Origin: Acidobacteriota bacterium
GTDB taxonomy: Bacteria; Acidobacteriota; Thermoanaerobaculia; Gp7-AA8; JAHWKK01
Length of the DNA stretch: 64,000 nt
Direction: 5' to 3'
NCBI GenBank assembly: GCA_019347945.1
Contig: JAHWKK010000016.1
Coordinates: 1-64,000, forward strand
Shown here: one piece after another, positions 22,558 to 32,790 of the stretch
How positions within the stretch are numbered: the stretch's first letter is position 1
How the letters are laid out: each line of letters begins with the position of its first letter
Notes under the pieces: model-generated
Told to the model about the DNA's origin: nothing
Databases searched by the model: none
What the model saw: only the letters and a program-made list of their open reading frames with translations
Program-made: the position numbers and the translations under genes

Positions 22558-23110
22558 AGCGGGCTCGACATCTGAGGGTGCCACATTCCTGTCCCCCGGC
22601 TGAAGCCGGGGGCTATGATCTGGCGCCGCCGTCCGGCGGCTTCGTCCGATTCTGCGCCGCGTCTGAAACGGTCAGCCCGGTCCTCGATTCTGTCGCCCGC
22701 TGAAGCGGGCTCGACACTCGAGGGTGCCACGTCCCTGTCCCCCGGCTGAAGCCGGGGGCTAAGACCTGGCGCCGCCTTTCGGCGGCTCCGTCCGATTCTG
22801 CGCGACGTCCGAAACGATCAGCCCGGTCCTGCTCGATTCTGCTTCGCGGTTGCGAAACGCGAGGATCGAGTCTTTGCCAGCCCGCGGTCCGCGTGTTGCC
22901 AGCCCAAGGTCCGCGAGCGACAGAACGTCAAACGCCCTCGAAGGCGTTGAATCTCGCGAGATCTCCACCTTGGTTCAGCCCGCGCCCCGCGGGCGTAAGA
23001 CCTTAGCCCCCGGCTTCAGCCGGGGGATAGGAGACCGTCGCAGAGAATGTCGAGCCCGCTTCAGCGGGCGGCAGATTTCGCGCTGAAGGGGAGGCGTTCC
23101 GAGAATTTCG
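22539..23110. repeat. Two 146-bp tandem units plus composite repeat copy 2
   Basis: Units beginning CGATTCTGTCGCCCGCTGAA start at 22539 and 22685, each with three hairpins (CCCGCTGAAGCGGG, CCCCCGGCTGAAGCCGGGGG, and CCGCC/GGCGG). A third, diverged unit begins near 22832. From about 22780 to 23090 the sequence matches 1-341 in order. No gene is seen between the permease stop and the iorA-like gene. Confidence 0.85.
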
Positions 23111-23176: not shown

Positions 23177-23644
23177 ATGACGGCGCGAAAACTCACCATC
23201 AACGGCAGGAAAGTCGAGTTACAGGCCGGTGCTGATATGCCGCTCCTCTGGGCGCTCAGAGACGTCCTCGGCCTCACGGGTACGAAATATGGCTGCGGTG
23301 TCGGACTCTGCGGCGCGTGCACGGTGCTCGACGGAGATCGCGCAATCCGGTCCTGCCAGGTCGGCGTGGGGGCCGCCGAAGGTCACTCGATCACGACGAT
23401 CGAGGGTCTCTCGGAAGATGCGTCCCATCCGATTCAGAAGGCGTGGCTCGAGGAGGACGTGGCGCAGTGCGGATACTGCCAGCCGGCGATGATCCTGGCC
23501 ATCCGGGCGCTGCTTCGCGAGAACCCCGACCCGACTCCGGCCGAGATCGACGCCGCTCTCAGCGATCACGTCTGTCGCTGCGGTTCCTACCCTCGTATCA
23601 GAAAAGCGGCGCTGCGCGCGGCGAGACTCGGAGGCGGAAAATGA
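23177..23644 (+). CDS. iorA: 2Fe-2S subunit of an isoquinoline 1-oxidoreductase-like molybdenum hydroxylase
   Basis: The 155-aa product carries both [2Fe-2S] sites of the xanthine oxidase family small subunit: GTKYGCGVGLCGACTVLDG (about 36-54) with a further Cys, and CGYCQPAM plus CRCGSYPRIR (about 103-141). AGGAGG precedes the ATG. It passes electrons from the Mo-cofactor subunit. The TGA overlaps the ATG of the large subunit (ATGA). The electron acceptor (cytochrome or other) is not in the window. Confidence 0.92.
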   Translation: MTARKLTINGRKVELQAGADMPLLWALRDVLGLTGTKYGCGVGLCGACTVLDGDRAIRSCQVGVGAAEGHSITTIEGLSEDASHPIQKAWLEEDVAQCGYCQPAMILAIRALLRENPDPTPAEIDAALSDHVCRCGSYPRIRKAALRAARLGGGK

Positions 23645-25827
23645 CCACGACACGCCGCGATTTCATCAAGCTCGTCAGCGCGAGCAGCGGAGCGCTCATC
23701 CTCGGCCTCCGGCTCGATGCACTGTCGGACGAAGCTGCCAGCCTCGAGCCGAATGCCTGGGTATCGATCCATCCCGAGGGCTCAGTCCTCATCCGCATCG
23801 GAAAAAGCGAAATGGGTCAGGGCGTCCGGACGTCACTCCCGATGATTCTCACCGAGGAGCTCGACGCCGATCTCTCGTCGGTGAAGATCGAGCAGGCGTC
23901 GCCGAGTGAAGTATTCAATCGCCTCGGAACCGGGGGAAGCGGATCGATCATGAGAATGTGGGATCCTCTCCGCCAGGCCGGGGCGACGGCCCGCGCAATG
24001 CTCGTCGCCGCGGCCGCAGCTCGCTGGAACGTCGATCCGTTGACATGCACGACCTCAGCGGGAGTCGTCCACCACTCGCCCACCGGCCGGACGGCGAAGT
24101 ACGGTGATCTCGCCGCCGCCGCGTCCACTCTGCCGGTTCCTCAGGATGTCCCGCTGAAAAAACGGGAGGACTTTCGCCTGATCGGGAAGGCTCTGCATCG
24201 GACCGATGGTCCCGACATCGTCACCGGACGCGCCGTCTACGGACTCGACGTCCGCGTTCCCGGGATGGTCTTCGCGGTCCTTGCGCGCCCTCCCAGGTTC
24301 GGCGCCACAATGGCGAAACTCGATTCGAAGAAAACCGAGTCGATGCCAGGCGTCGTGAAGGTCGTCGAGATTCCGCAGGGAGTCGCCGTCGTCGGGACGA
24401 CGACGTGGGCCGCCCTCGAAGGAAGACGAGCGCTCCTCATCGAATGGAAGAACGGCGAGGGTTCCGATTTCGACAGCGATGAGCACGCCGGCAAACTGCG
24501 CGCGGCGACCGAACATCGGAACATGGTGATCCACACGGTCGGAAATGGCGCGGCCGATCTCGAGCTCGCCGATCGGAAGATCGAAGCACTCTACGAATAC
24601 GGTTTCGAAGCGCACGCTCCGGTCGAACCTGTCAACTGCACCGTTCTCGCCGAGGAGGACCGGTGCACGATCTGGTCACCGACGCAAACGCCGAACAGCG
24701 TTCAGGCGGTCGGTGCCCACGTCCTCGGAATCGACCGTTCTGCCGTCCTGGTCAACGTGATGATGATCGGCGGAGGCTTCGGGCGCAGGCTCGGGCACGA
24801 CTTCGATCGTGAGGCGGTCGAGATCGCGAGCAGGATGAAGGGGACGCCGGTGCAGCTCGTCTGGTCGCGCGAAGACGACATGAAACACGGCTACTTCCAG
24901 GCCGCCTCGGCGCACCGCCTCGCCGCCGGAATCGACGAATCCGGCCGCGTGACGAGCTGGCTCCATCGAAAAACCTCGTCGCCGCACAACGCTCGCTACG
25001 CATTCTCCGAAAAGGAGCGCGCCAGCCCGGACGTCGTTCGTGGATGGGCGTGGGGCGTCTACGACAACCCCTACGCGATCCCTTCGATGGAGATGAGCTA
25101 CGGCATCGTCGACTCCCCCGTTCTGATCGGACCGTGGAGATCCGTCTTCTCGCCGCCATCGGTCTTCGCCCGCGAATGCTTCATCGACGAGATCGCAATG
25201 GAGCTCGATCGCGACCCGATCGATCTTCGCCTCGAGCTCCTCGGGCGCGACGACGAATCGATTCCCCATACGCTGACGTTCGACGAAGACAAGTCGGACC
25301 GGCGACGGCTGCGGGGAGTGCTGGACGCGGTCGCGAAGCTTTCGCGCTGGAACGCGCCGGTCAAAAAGGGACACGCGCGCGGCATCGCCTGCAATGTCTT
25401 TCACACCGAAACCTACATTGCGTACGTCGTCGACGTCTCCCTCCGGCCGGATGCTCCGGACGGCGCACTCCCGTTTCGAGTTCACAGCGTCGCAGCCGCG
25501 GTCGACTGCGGCGTCGTCGTCAACCCGAACGGCGTCCGCCAGCAGGTCGAGAGCGGCGTCATCTGGTCCCTCTCGAACATGAAATCGGAGATCACTTTCC
25601 GCGAGGGTGCAGCGGAGCAGAGCTACTATTCCGATTTCCCTGTGGTCATGATCGACGAGACACCGGCAGTCATCGACGTGACCATCATCGAGAGCGACGA
25701 CGATCGTCCTCACGGACTCGGCGAACCGACCGTATGCCCCTTTGCACCGGCCGTCGCGAACGCACTCTCGAGACTCGCCGGAAATAGGATCCGGAAGCTT
25801 CCCGTCAGAGCCGGCGATCTCGCCTGA
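23641..25827 (+). CDS. iorB: Molybdopterin-binding large subunit, isoquinoline 1-oxidoreductase-like
   Basis: The 728-aa protein begins with a twin-arginine signal (TTRRDFIKLVSASSGALILGL), so the complex is likely exported folded to the periplasm. Two aldehyde oxidase/xanthine dehydrogenase Mo-binding domains follow, with TGGSGSIMRMWDPLRQAGA, VTGRAVYGLDV, MMIGGGFGRRLGHDFDREAVEIA and a C-terminal GLGEPTVCP, the usual place of the catalytic Glu. The physiological substrate (N-heterocycle or aldehyde) is unknown. Its stop directly abuts the stop of the convergent XdhC-MobA gene (TGATCA). Confidence 0.92.
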   Translation: MTTTRRDFIKLVSASSGALILGLRLDALSDEAASLEPNAWVSIHPEGSVLIRIGKSEMGQGVRTSLPMILTEELDADLSSVKIEQASPSEVFNRLGTGGSGSIMRMWDPLRQAGATARAMLVAAAAARWNVDPLTCTTSAGVVHHSPTGRTAKYGDLAAAASTLPVPQDVPLKKREDFRLIGKALHRTDGPDIVTGRAVYGLDVRVPGMVFAVLARPPRFGATMAKLDSKKTESMPGVVKVVEIPQGVAVVGTTTWAALEGRRALLIEWKNGEGSDFDSDEHAGKLRAATEHRNMVIHTVGNGAADLELADRKIEALYEYGFEAHAPVEPVNCTVLAEEDRCTIWSPTQTPNSVQAVGAHVLGIDRSAVLVNVMMIGGGFGRRLGHDFDREAVEIASRMKGTPVQLVWSREDDMKHGYFQAASAHRLAAGIDESGRVTSWLHRKTSSPHNARYAFSEKERASPDVVRGWAWGVYDNPYAIPSMEMSYGIVDSPVLIGPWRSVFSPPSVFARECFIDEIAMELDRDPIDLRLELLGRDDESIPHTLTFDEDKSDRRRLRGVLDAVAKLSRWNAPVKKGHARGIACNVFHTETYIAYVVDVSLRPDAPDGALPFRVHSVAAAVDCGVVVNPNGVRQQVESGVIWSLSNMKSEITFREGAAEQSYYSDFPVVMIDETPAVIDVTIIESDDDRPHGLGEPTVCPFAPAVANALSRLAGNRIRKLPVRAGDLA

Positions 25828-27384
25828 TCAATCGCGATCCGTGACGATCTCCGCGTATGCGCGAGGGTCGTCGACGTCCCGCGTGTCGCCGGCTTCGATG
25901 AGGCGGGCGGTCGAATCCGATCGGATCAGCTCGCGCGCCCCCTCGTCGCCATCGAGACGCATCAGCTCGCGGAAGAGCGAACGCGCGAAGATCGCGGGGA
26001 CGCCGCCCCCTTGGGCGTAGCGAGTTGCAACGATGTTCCGGTCATCGGCTCTCCACGCCCCGATCAGCCGCTCGAGATCCGGCCGGTCAATCCGCGGCTG
26101 GTCGGCGAGGACGATCAGTGCGGCGTCGATGTCGTCACCGAGCGCCGCCACACCGCACCGTACCGAGCTCGCGATTCCCTCCCGCCAGTCGGAGTTGGGG
26201 ACCGAACGAGCTCCGCGACGCCGGGCTATAGCTCCAACTTCCGGCTCCGCGCCGTCGACGACGACAACGTCGCAGACCGGAAGCTCGCCCACGGTCGCGA
26301 GCGCTTCCTCGAGAAGCGAATCATCCCCGCGGCCCTTCATCAGAAGCTTGCTTTCCCCCATCCTCGACGAGCCGCCCGCGGCCAGAATGATCGCCGCCAG
26401 TCTGGCCGAGCCCCGGCCGTGAACCGGCTCACTGCTGGCGCTGAGCGAGCCACCCTCCACTCCCCGGCGCACCGCCTGGATCTCGGCGACGATTGACAGC
26501 GCGATCTCCTCCACGGTTTCCGAGCCGATCTCGAGTCCTGCAGGGGTGTGCAGCCGGAAGAGGTCGAGATCGCCGTGCTGGTTCCGAAGCTCTGCGACGA
26601 GCTTCCCGCTCCGTGAGCGCGACCCGATGAGACCGACATAGAGCGGATCGTTTGCGAGCGCCTCTGCCACCAGGTCGAGGTCGCGCTCGAAATGGTGCGT
26701 CATGACCACGATCGCCGTTCGGGCGGGTCTCGTAACGACCGGACCGAGATCCTTCGCGGTCCGTGCGAGCGCGGCCATCGATTCGCGAACCCGCGGCCGG
26801 TGATCGACCACGACCGGTTCCCATCCGATCGGGACCGCCAGCCGCGCCATCGACGCCGCGAGCGCTCCTCCACCGCAGAGGATCAGCTCGAGCGGTGCCT
26901 GAAGCCGCTCGCGGAAAATCACGCGCCCGCTCGCCCCATCCGGAGCCTCGTCGAGATGAATCCGGGTGCGGGGACCGCTCTCCGGTTCATCGGATACCGT
27001 CAGAAAGAGGTCGCGGTCGCGGATCGCATCGGGAATCGTGGCGAGCTCGTCCGACAGTCTCCCGCCGATCTTCTCGACCGCGATCGCCACCTCGCCGTCG
27101 CACATTGCACCTTCGCCGAGAAGTACGTCGTCATCGGCACCGTCGTAGCGGAGGATCACCGAGCGACCCGTGCGAATCACTTCGCTCGAGGCATCGATCA
27201 CCGAGTTTTCGAGACAACCTCCGCTCACCGATCCGATGGTCGACCCGTCCTCGAAAACGAGCATCCTCGCTCCCGGCCGCCGGAAGGTCGAGCCTCGCGT
27301 CCGGATGACGGTCGCGAGCGCGCCGCCGCGCGCCCGATCCGCGCGGTCGCCCCACGCGGTTGCGATTCCGACGATCTCGCTCAT
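25828..27384 (-). CDS. XdhC/CoxI - MobA-like nucleotidyltransferase fusion
   Basis: The 518-aa protein fuses two maturation functions. Residues about 15-95 are an XdhC_CoxI domain (VIRTRGSTFRRPGARMLV, IGSVSGGCLE); about 165-305 an XdhC Rossmann domain (LILCGGGALAASMARLA, YVGLIGSRSRSG, LHTPAGLEIGSETVEEIALSI); about 330-515 a MocA/MobA-type molybdopterin nucleotidyltransferase (AAIILAAGGSSRMGESKLL, ALIVLADQPRID). It would make and load the cytosine- or guanine-dinucleotide Mo cofactor for IorAB. It is convergent with iorB with no spacer, so co-function is inferred from position and family. Confidence 0.9.
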   Translation of the reverse strand: MSEIVGIATAWGDRADRARGGALATVIRTRGSTFRRPGARMLVFEDGSTIGSVSGGCLENSVIDASSEVIRTGRSVILRYDGADDDVLLGEGAMCDGEVAIAVEKIGGRLSDELATIPDAIRDRDLFLTVSDEPESGPRTRIHLDEAPDGASGRVIFRERLQAPLELILCGGGALAASMARLAVPIGWEPVVVDHRPRVRESMAALARTAKDLGPVVTRPARTAIVVMTHHFERDLDLVAEALANDPLYVGLIGSRSRSGKLVAELRNQHGDLDLFRLHTPAGLEIGSETVEEIALSIVAEIQAVRRGVEGGSLSASSEPVHGRGSARLAAIILAAGGSSRMGESKLLMKGRGDDSLLEEALATVGELPVCDVVVVDGAEPEVGAIARRRGARSVPNSDWREGIASSVRCGVAALGDDIDAALIVLADQPRIDRPDLERLIGAWRADDRNIVATRYAQGGGVPAIFARSLFRELMRLDGDEGARELIRSDSTARLIEAGDTRDVDDPRAYAEIVTDRD

Positions 27385-31433: not shown

Positions 31434-31793
31434 TCAGCCCGCTCCGAGCTTTTCCCGATACTCCTCCGGCTTCCATCCGAACACGAACTTGCTGCCCGAG
31501 ACCACCAGCGGCCGCCGCATCAGGTTCGAATCCTTCAGAATGAGATCGATCGCCTCGGAGGCCGTGACTTTCCGATCCGCGAGGCCCCTCTCCTTGAATG
31601 CCGGGCTTCTCGGATTGAGCACTTCGCGCGCATTCGCGTCGGTGACGAGCCGCTCGAGCAGCTCCCGCGGCGGTGGATCCTTCGCGAGATCGTGTTTCTC
31701 CAGGCCCACTCCAGCATCGTCGAAGAAGGCGACCGCCTTCCTGCAGCTCGTTCAGCTGGGCTTGAGCCAGATCTGCATCCGTTTACCGGCCAT
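31434..31793 (-). CDS. Selenocysteine-containing ArsC/Spx/YffB-family protein
   Basis: Reading from ATG 31793 (GGGAGGA just upstream) gives 119 aa with one in-frame TGA at codon 14 (31754-31752): KPS-U-TSCRKAVAFF. Spx/ArsC-family proteins have the redox motif CxxC or CxxS at this exact place, typically PSCTSCRKA, so TGA replaces the first Cys to give UxxC. The rest (LVTDANAREVLNPRSPAFKERG, RRPLVVSGSKFVFGWKPEEY) matches the family to its end. A SECIS-like hairpin follows the TGA. Conventional callers would start at residue 29 or call a pseudogene. It probably acts as a thiol/selenol oxidoreductase; arsenate reduction is not demonstrated. Confidence 0.85.
31723..31742 (-). promoter_or_regulatory. 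Candidate bacterial SECIS element
   Basis: Nine bases after the TGA, AGGAAGGC pairs with GCCUUCUU (8 bp including one G-U), closing a GGUC loop. Bacterial SECIS hairpins lie just 3' of the UGA and need G residues at the start of the loop; E. coli fdhF presents AGGUCU. The GGU positions are about 18-20 nt after the UGA, in the workable range. Confidence 0.75.
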
Positions 31794-31802
31794 GATTCCT
31801 CC

Positions 31803-32462
31803 CTAGAACTGGAACGACAATCCGGCCGAAAGAATCAGCGGATTGACTTCGATCTCGCCCTGCTCCTCAGGGCCCGCGAGAAAGACGACAGTTGCAGCCG
31901 ACTCGACCGGAATGTACTTCGCGTCGACATTGAGCGCGAACGCGCTCGTCAGATCGAAGCTGAACCCGAGGTTGAAGACGACCCCGTAATCGTCCTCGAG
32001 CTCGACCCGGTCGAGCTCGATCTGCTCGACATCGTCGCGGCTCTCGAGGTCATCGACGAGAACGTAGCCGACTCCTACACCGATGTAGGGATCGAAAGCC
32101 GAGTTGGGCAGGAGGTGGAGTTGAAGCACCGCACTCAGCGGGACTACCTCCAGCTCACCGAGGGCGAGGGGCGGCAGCGCCGGGTTGGCGGCCGTCGCGA
32201 AGGCATCCGGCTCGAACCGGTGAATCGATGCGGCGAGCGAGAGGCGGTTGCCGATGAAGAAGTTCAGCCCGAGGCCATACCCGGTCTCCGAATCGAAATC
32301 GATGTCGACATCATCGATCTCGTCGGGGTCGATCGATTCCAGGGTCGTGTCTCCGCTCAGATCGATCCAGCCATACCATGCGGTCACATCGACGATTCTC
32401 CCCTCCGCCGGCAGCGCGAAGAGCCCCGCCACCAGAGCAGTGGAAATCAGAAGTCGTTTCAT
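31803..32462 (-). CDS. OmpW/outer-membrane beta-barrel family protein
   Basis: The 219-aa product has a signal peptide (MKRLLISTALVAGLFALPAEG) and alternating amphipathic strands: GYGLGLNFFIGNRLSLAASIHRF, PYIGVGVGYVLVDD, GVVFNLGFSFDLTSAFALNVDAKYIPV, ending LILSAGLSFQF with C-terminal Phe. These are OmpW-like features (PYIGxGVGY) of a small outer-membrane barrel. The Sec-containing gene begins upstream of it in coordinates but downstream in transcription, 9 bp after this stop, so the two are cotranscribed. Confidence 0.88.
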   Translation of the reverse strand: MKRLLISTALVAGLFALPAEGRIVDVTAWYGWIDLSGDTTLESIDPDEIDDVDIDFDSETGYGLGLNFFIGNRLSLAASIHRFEPDAFATAANPALPPLALGELEVVPLSAVLQLHLLPNSAFDPYIGVGVGYVLVDDLESRDDVEQIELDRVELEDDYGVVFNLGFSFDLTSAFALNVDAKYIPVESAATVVFLAGPEEQGEIEVNPLILSAGLSFQF

Positions 32463-32790
32463 TTCAGAGTCCCCCTTCCCCCGCCCGAGCGAGCAGGATC
32501 GGTGCCGATGGTCGCTTCGCGCAAAAACGCAACATTCGTCATTCTGAGCCCGGCGGAGCACGGGCGAAGAATCTGGCCGGGGGCTCGTGAATCACCGTTG
32601 CCGTCCACTCGTCACTTTCTTTCACGAGCCTGCCGCCAGATCCTTCGCCGTCCTTCGGCGGCTCAGGATGACGAGGGGGTGGAATGTCCGGGCGCCCGCC
32701 CATTAGAGAACCCGCATCCCCCGCACCCCCAGAATAATCAGGTCGTTCCGGCAGTTTTCCGGCGCGACTACAGAGGTAGAGGACGAGACT
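32463..32790. repeat. Intergenic gap between divergent ompW-like and rpmE
   Basis: Promoters for both genes must lie here. Two short dispersed repeats are visible: GTCATTCTGAGCCCGGCGG near 32538, and CCAGATCCTTCGCCGTCCTTC with GGCTCAGGATGACGAGG near 32636-32677. They are inverted relatives of the CCTGAGC elements elsewhere. No gene is seen. Confidence 0.55.

Follow-up and report, generated by a model that had tools for sequence, protein, structure and literature searches.

The question raised by this locus is whether a short ArsC/Spx-like gene with an in-frame TGA at its redox site is broken or encodes a selenoprotein. The gene lies on the minus strand of the window, that is, the whole analyzed stretch of 64 kb from an Acidobacteriota genome of soil type, in which four candidates combining a TGA, a redox motif and a hairpin were picked mechanically; the ArsC/Spx-like candidate is the one of the four that was searched against protein families, and a family match is reported for it below. 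We conclude that the gene is almost certainly intact and encodes an ArsC/Spx-like selenoprotein with selenocysteine (Sec) at the redox-active site. This reading is backed by computation, namely by the position of the UGA, the adjacent hairpin, the Sec decoding machinery of the genome, purifying selection, the exchange of Sec and Cys among homologues, and fold prediction.

The reading frame and its in-frame TGA

The features of the locus, with the basis of each assignment, are as follows.

31434..31793, minus strand: Sec-containing ArsC/Spx-like gene, 119 aa with U14 (frame read, profile matches, homologue alignment)
31752..31754, minus strand: in-frame TGA, codon 14, read as Sec and forming UxxC with Cys17 (shared by 11 of the 12 clade members, the twelfth having TGC)
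31743..31745, minus strand: TGC, codon 17, for the resolving Cys of the UxxC motif (unchanged throughout the clade alignment)
31434..31436, minus strand: natural stop codon, TGA (frame read)
31798..31802, minus strand: Shine-Dalgarno-like GGAGG before the ATG at 31793 (sequence read)
31723..31742, minus strand: bSECIS-like hairpin, with stem 31742-31735 / 31730-31723 (8 bp) and GGUC loop 31734-31731 (published model)
31803..32561, minus strand: gene of an OmpW-family outer-membrane protein, immediately upstream (its stop lies 9 nt ahead of the ATG)

The gene starts with the ATG at 31793-31791 (minus strand), and its read-through translation is MAGKRMQIWLKPSUTSCRKAVAFF..., where the TGA takes the place of the first of the two Cys in the redox motif KPSCTSCRKA (KPS-U-TSC), the second, Cys17, being kept. 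With the TGA taken as Cys, the product matches the Pfam ArsC family PF03960 (64.3 bits, cut-off 24) and the NCBIfam model TIGR01617, arsC_related, of the Spx/MgsR subfamily (80.0 bits, cut-off 75.05). Translation and both profiles agree with the initial annotation, which had placed the TGA at the first redox Cys of a frame that stays in family register down to the natural stop. This stop is itself TGA, and therefore the reading of codon 14 must depend on context. The OmpW-family gene and the ArsC/Spx-like gene are possibly co-transcribed; a search around the latter revealed neither a promoter-like nor a terminator-like site.

Standard gene calling either truncates the gene after 13 codons or mis-starts it at an internal GTG, and a recurrent acidobacterial Sec redox protein can therefore be missed. 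It is very improbable that translation indeed starts at this GTG (31709), past the TGA, and yields a shorter protein devoid of the redox site. A 91-aa ORF from GTG 31709 does exist, but conservation in the family already sets in ahead of the TGA and is strongest in the redox motif, and the GGAGG precedes the ATG at 31793.

The Sec decoding machinery, whose absence would have spoken against a selenoprotein, is present in the genome, which comprises 49 contigs with 3.72 Mb in total and is 99.65% complete. All four components that the initial annotation had expected from the sequence, selA, selB, selC, and selD, were found: SelA scores 453 bits, SelB 355 bits, and SelD 353 bits, and one tRNA-Sec with a TCA anticodon is over the family cut-off (68.9 bits). 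The gene of SelD, too, contains an in-frame TGA (L048:415-417, ...TSGG-U-ACKLG), by eye at the position of the usual catalytic Cys, and the genome therefore holds at least one further selenoprotein candidate.

TGA and Cys forms of the gene in Acidobacteriota

A close orthologue was found in 12 of the 19 genomes of the order (the window genome counted). With the window genome left aside, the same codon is TGA in ten of the 11 relatives from the order and TGC in one, L029; the named relatives are Acidobacteriota, several of them labelled Thermoanaerobaculia or "gp7". Phylum-wide, the 101 non-redundant homologues comprise 55 TGA and 46 Cys forms, so that Sec forms of ArsC-like proteins, initially described as rare, are in fact widespread in Acidobacteriota. 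All 55 acidobacterial TGAs fall in one alignment column, at the redox site: TGA and Cys codons alternate at exactly codon 14 and nowhere else. Sister genomes showed no scatter of random stops or indels in the gene, the sole exception being one decayed copy, described below, from a genome in which no SelB was found. At least 11 Sec/Cys exchanges were counted on a quick tree that was built with the redox column blanked, from few columns, and that has many unresolved forks.

The distribution of the TGA form follows that of SelB. Among the 80 genomes with a TGA or a Cys form, SelB is over the cut-off in 35 of 36 TGA-form genomes versus 16 of the 44 with the Cys form (Fisher p = 4e-9, with many SelB-less genomes coming from one family, f39, and the rows not being phylogenetically independent); with one count per genus or per family, the p values are 0.009 and 0.011, respectively. 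Since SelB passes the cut-off in nearly all genomes of the order (18 of 19), the association rests on more distant genomes. The single TGA-form genome with no detected SelB (G395) has a TGA copy (L097, G395:C2:19700-20200) that also carries an in-frame TAG, as expected of decay once Sec decoding is lost. This copy is likely a selenoprotein gene decaying after such a loss.

In the codons after the TGA, third-position differences outnumber second-position differences in every compared pair, and in the two closest pairs the dN/dS ratio is 0.15 (L025/L028) and 0.32 (L026/L027). This purifying selection downstream of the TGA implies that translation past it matters.

These observations leave practically no room for an ordinary ArsC-like gene of the Cys type that was hit by a nonsense mutation or a sequencing error, an event that the initial annotation would not have expected at exactly this codon, next to a hairpin. 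TGA and TGC differ by one base, and a single error would be enough to explain one genome alone, but the TGA recurs, always at that codon, in all but one of the 11 relatives from the order and in the 55 homologues of the phylum, purifying selection persists after it, and the genome possesses the Sec machinery. A negligible probability is likewise left for codon 14 being read as some other amino acid, either through general reassignment of UGA or through readthrough by a Trp or Cys tRNA. UGA is known to be reassigned in some lineages. Here, however, the ArsC/Spx-like gene itself ends in TGA, as do many of its homologues, TGA at codon 14 alternates with Cys codons only, and the genome encodes SelB and a tRNA-Sec with the TCA anticodon. 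With Sec as the preferred reading of codon 14, the 55 Sec and 46 Cys homologues, with their repeated exchanges and their tie to SelB, amount to a natural experiment that can show when selenocysteine is retained in bacteria.

The hairpin downstream of the TGA

The hairpin AGGAAGGC-GGUC-GCCUUCUU begins 9 nt after the TGA and has its loop 17 nt after it. The stem of 8 bp, as read by eye, includes one G-U pair; in the computed fold of the 20-mer (-10.3 kcal/mol) seven pairs form, and the outermost A-U pair is open. The published bacterial SECIS (bSECIS) model requires G at the first two loop positions, a loop located 16-37 nt after the UGA, a stem of 4-16 bp, and a minimum free energy of at most -7.5 kcal/mol (PMC13188914), and the GGUC hairpin agrees with all these constraints. 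An Rfam search gave no matching SECIS model at the hairpin, and its folding energy is not unusual when compared with dinucleotide shuffles (z about -0.5). When the peptide is recoded at random with synonymous codons, however, just 3.8% of the resulting sequences contain an equally good G-loop hairpin in the allowed range (window p 0.04), and the hairpin is thus better than expected by chance. Among the homologues, G-loop hairpins of the Sec forms are better than those of random synonymous recodings (median p 0.06), whereas the hairpins of the Cys forms are ordinary (median p 0.63); the difference between Sec and Cys forms has Mann-Whitney p = 2e-11, with related sequences being treated as independent in all these p values, as well as in the pair counts that follow.

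The GGUC loop at +17 is common to 13 sequences in one ungapped register. In their stem, three of the eight pairs show two-sided changes, among them a C-G pair that is G-C in the window, and the covariation, although the changes are few, exceeds that of all 500 shuffles. Within the order, the +17 GGUC hairpin is found in two of the ten other TGA orthologues (L021 and L024), other TGA orthologues have candidate hairpins at +28/29, and those of two further ones, L022 and L023, are weak. The initial proposal that the GGUC hairpin serves as the SECIS is thus consistent with the bSECIS constraints and with the compensatory changes in the stem, but its register is not kept in every orthologue.

Two Cys-type homologues from Terriglobia (L067 and L068) retain most of the GGUC hairpin of their Sec relatives (L098-L107), with one mismatch in one of them. 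These hairpins may possibly be relics of a former SECIS.

Predicted function, candidate partner gene, and known relatives

The AlphaFold model of the product has a pLDDT of 91, and among PDB structures it most resembles ArsC, Spx, and YffB proteins (TM about 0.67-0.83). The label ArsC/Spx given in the initial annotation is one of fold family; the residues support the function of neither an arsenate reductase nor Spx. It is quite improbable that the protein is a true arsenate reductase whose Cys12 is replaced by Sec. The fold is that of ArsC and the equivalent of Arg94 is conserved, but the arsenate-site residues Arg60, Arg94, and Arg107 correspond to N, R, and W in the window protein, and throughout the clade R60 is replaced by N and R107 by W/Y/F/H; moreover, the TIGR00014 score is 48 bits against a cut-off of 106, and no arsenic-resistance gene is present among the neighbours identified by Pfam.

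The case for a redox regulator of the Spx type, binding the alpha subunit of RNA polymerase and switched by the U-C pair, draws on the best sequence match among solved structures, which is an Spx (82 bits), on TIGR01617 (Spx/MgsR) being over its cut-off, and on the CxxC position and the equivalents of Spx R60 and R92, which are conserved in the clade. Nevertheless, we regard such a regulator as unlikely. The positions that correspond to Spx R47 and G52, residues known from the literature to contact the alpha subunit, vary in the clade (T/D/N and N/R/H/G), with T and N in the window protein; furthermore, the C terminus is short, and the Spx-specific NCBIfam models are far under cut-off (53.4 versus 123 for NF002459). 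Given the absence of two of the three arginines of the arsenate site and the lack of conservation at Spx R47 and G52, we favour a Sec-Cys thiol/selenol oxidoreductase over both an arsenate reductase and an RNA-polymerase-binding regulator.

For such an oxidoreductase, we infer selenium insertion and catalysis, together with partner and substrate, as follows. Ribosomes would start at the ATG at 31793 and arrive at the UGA of codon 14, where SelB and Sec-tRNA(Sec) would bind the GGUC-loop hairpin just downstream and Sec would be inserted. The product would be a thioredoxin-fold ArsC/Spx-like protein with the active site U14-xx-C17. The selenol of U14 may attack a disulfide, a peroxide, or a similar oxidised substrate, Cys17 would resolve the intermediate as a selenenylsulfide, and the latter would be reduced by a cellular thiol or an electron donor, a candidate partner being a BFD-like [2Fe-2S] protein, whose gene adjoins the Sec-ArsC gene in the sister family.

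In this sister family (f2), a BFD-like [2Fe-2S] gene precedes the Sec-ArsC gene in 11 of 11 genomes, the assignment being based on Pfam in four of them and on motif and position in all 11. The two genes nearly abut in nine cases and are separated by about 140 nt in the other two. The encoded BFD-like proteins have a conserved WW-containing C-terminal end. Four of the BFD-like genes of this family, each located directly upstream of the Sec-ArsC gene, are:

L064:2702-3001
L063:2690-2998
L066:2559-2858
L065:29-331

The BFD homologue of the window genome is unlinked (L136), and the OmpW-family gene precedes the Sec-ArsC gene instead. The pairing is no proof of interaction, yet it suggests that the BFD-like protein is a partner of the Sec-ArsC-like protein, and its conservation in the sister family provides a concrete handle on the function of ArsC-like selenoproteins. 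It is conceivable, though on balance doubtful, that the two proteins make up a dedicated redox module of Acidobacteriota that depends on selenium, with the BFD-like protein reducing its partner or sensing via the selenenylsulfide. We know of no such function, a selenenylsulfide served by a ferredoxin-like partner, for any ArsC-family protein.

Selenoproteins of the ArsC family have been reported since 2005, when the UxxS form was described in the Sargasso Sea study (PMC1088965); UxxC ArsC-like selenoproteins have been reported since 2008, from Global Ocean Sampling (GOS; PMC2398784), and further reports followed (PMC9312934, PMC13188914). The window gene thus adds to an already known kind. In the literature searched, which was covered in part, no description of the acidobacterial Sec-ArsC set or of its pairing with BFD was found. 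The window protein shares the ArsC-family fold and Sec in place of the first Cys of CxxC with two described UxxC groups, the GOS "Arsenate reductase 2" (cd03032; PMC2398784), compared by its description, and the NF041106 "arsenate reductase-like protein" (PMC13188914); in all of them the SECIS is just 3' of the UGA and Cys homologues exist. Unlike the window protein, these come from marine and other sources, and the window protein scores 24.3 bits with NF041106 (ArsC_rel_Se_1), under the cut-off of 85, passing TIGR01617 instead. The UxxS "arsenate reductase" selenoproteins of TIGR00014 (PMC1088965) belong to the same superfamily and have Sec at the same position. The one acidobacterial UxxS homologue that was scored (L039) is over the cut-off of the ArsC model, whereas the window protein is of the UxxC type and under that of TIGR00014.

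Among proteins of known structure, Spx (PDB 1z3e, 3l78, 7f75) has in common with the window protein the fold, the position of CxxC, and the R60 and R92 equivalents, but the window protein lacks R47, G52, and the C-terminal tail, and has Sec in place of Cys10. YffB and ArsC-like thiol reductases (PDB 1rw1, 3gkx) are similar to it in size and fold (TM about 0.8), a further likeness being the absence of the full arsenate site from the window protein; it differs from them in having UxxC with a resolving Cys, and the identity is only 24%.

Elsewhere in the window, two tandem Acido-Lenti-1 RNAs (Rfam RF01687) were found on the plus strand at 22593-22641 and 22739-22787. On the minus strand, the gene at 25828-27384 encodes XdhC/CoxI and MobA-like domains fused in one protein. 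It is adjoined by a long ORF (23317-25827) that, by eye, resembles the large subunit of a molybdenum hydroxylase.
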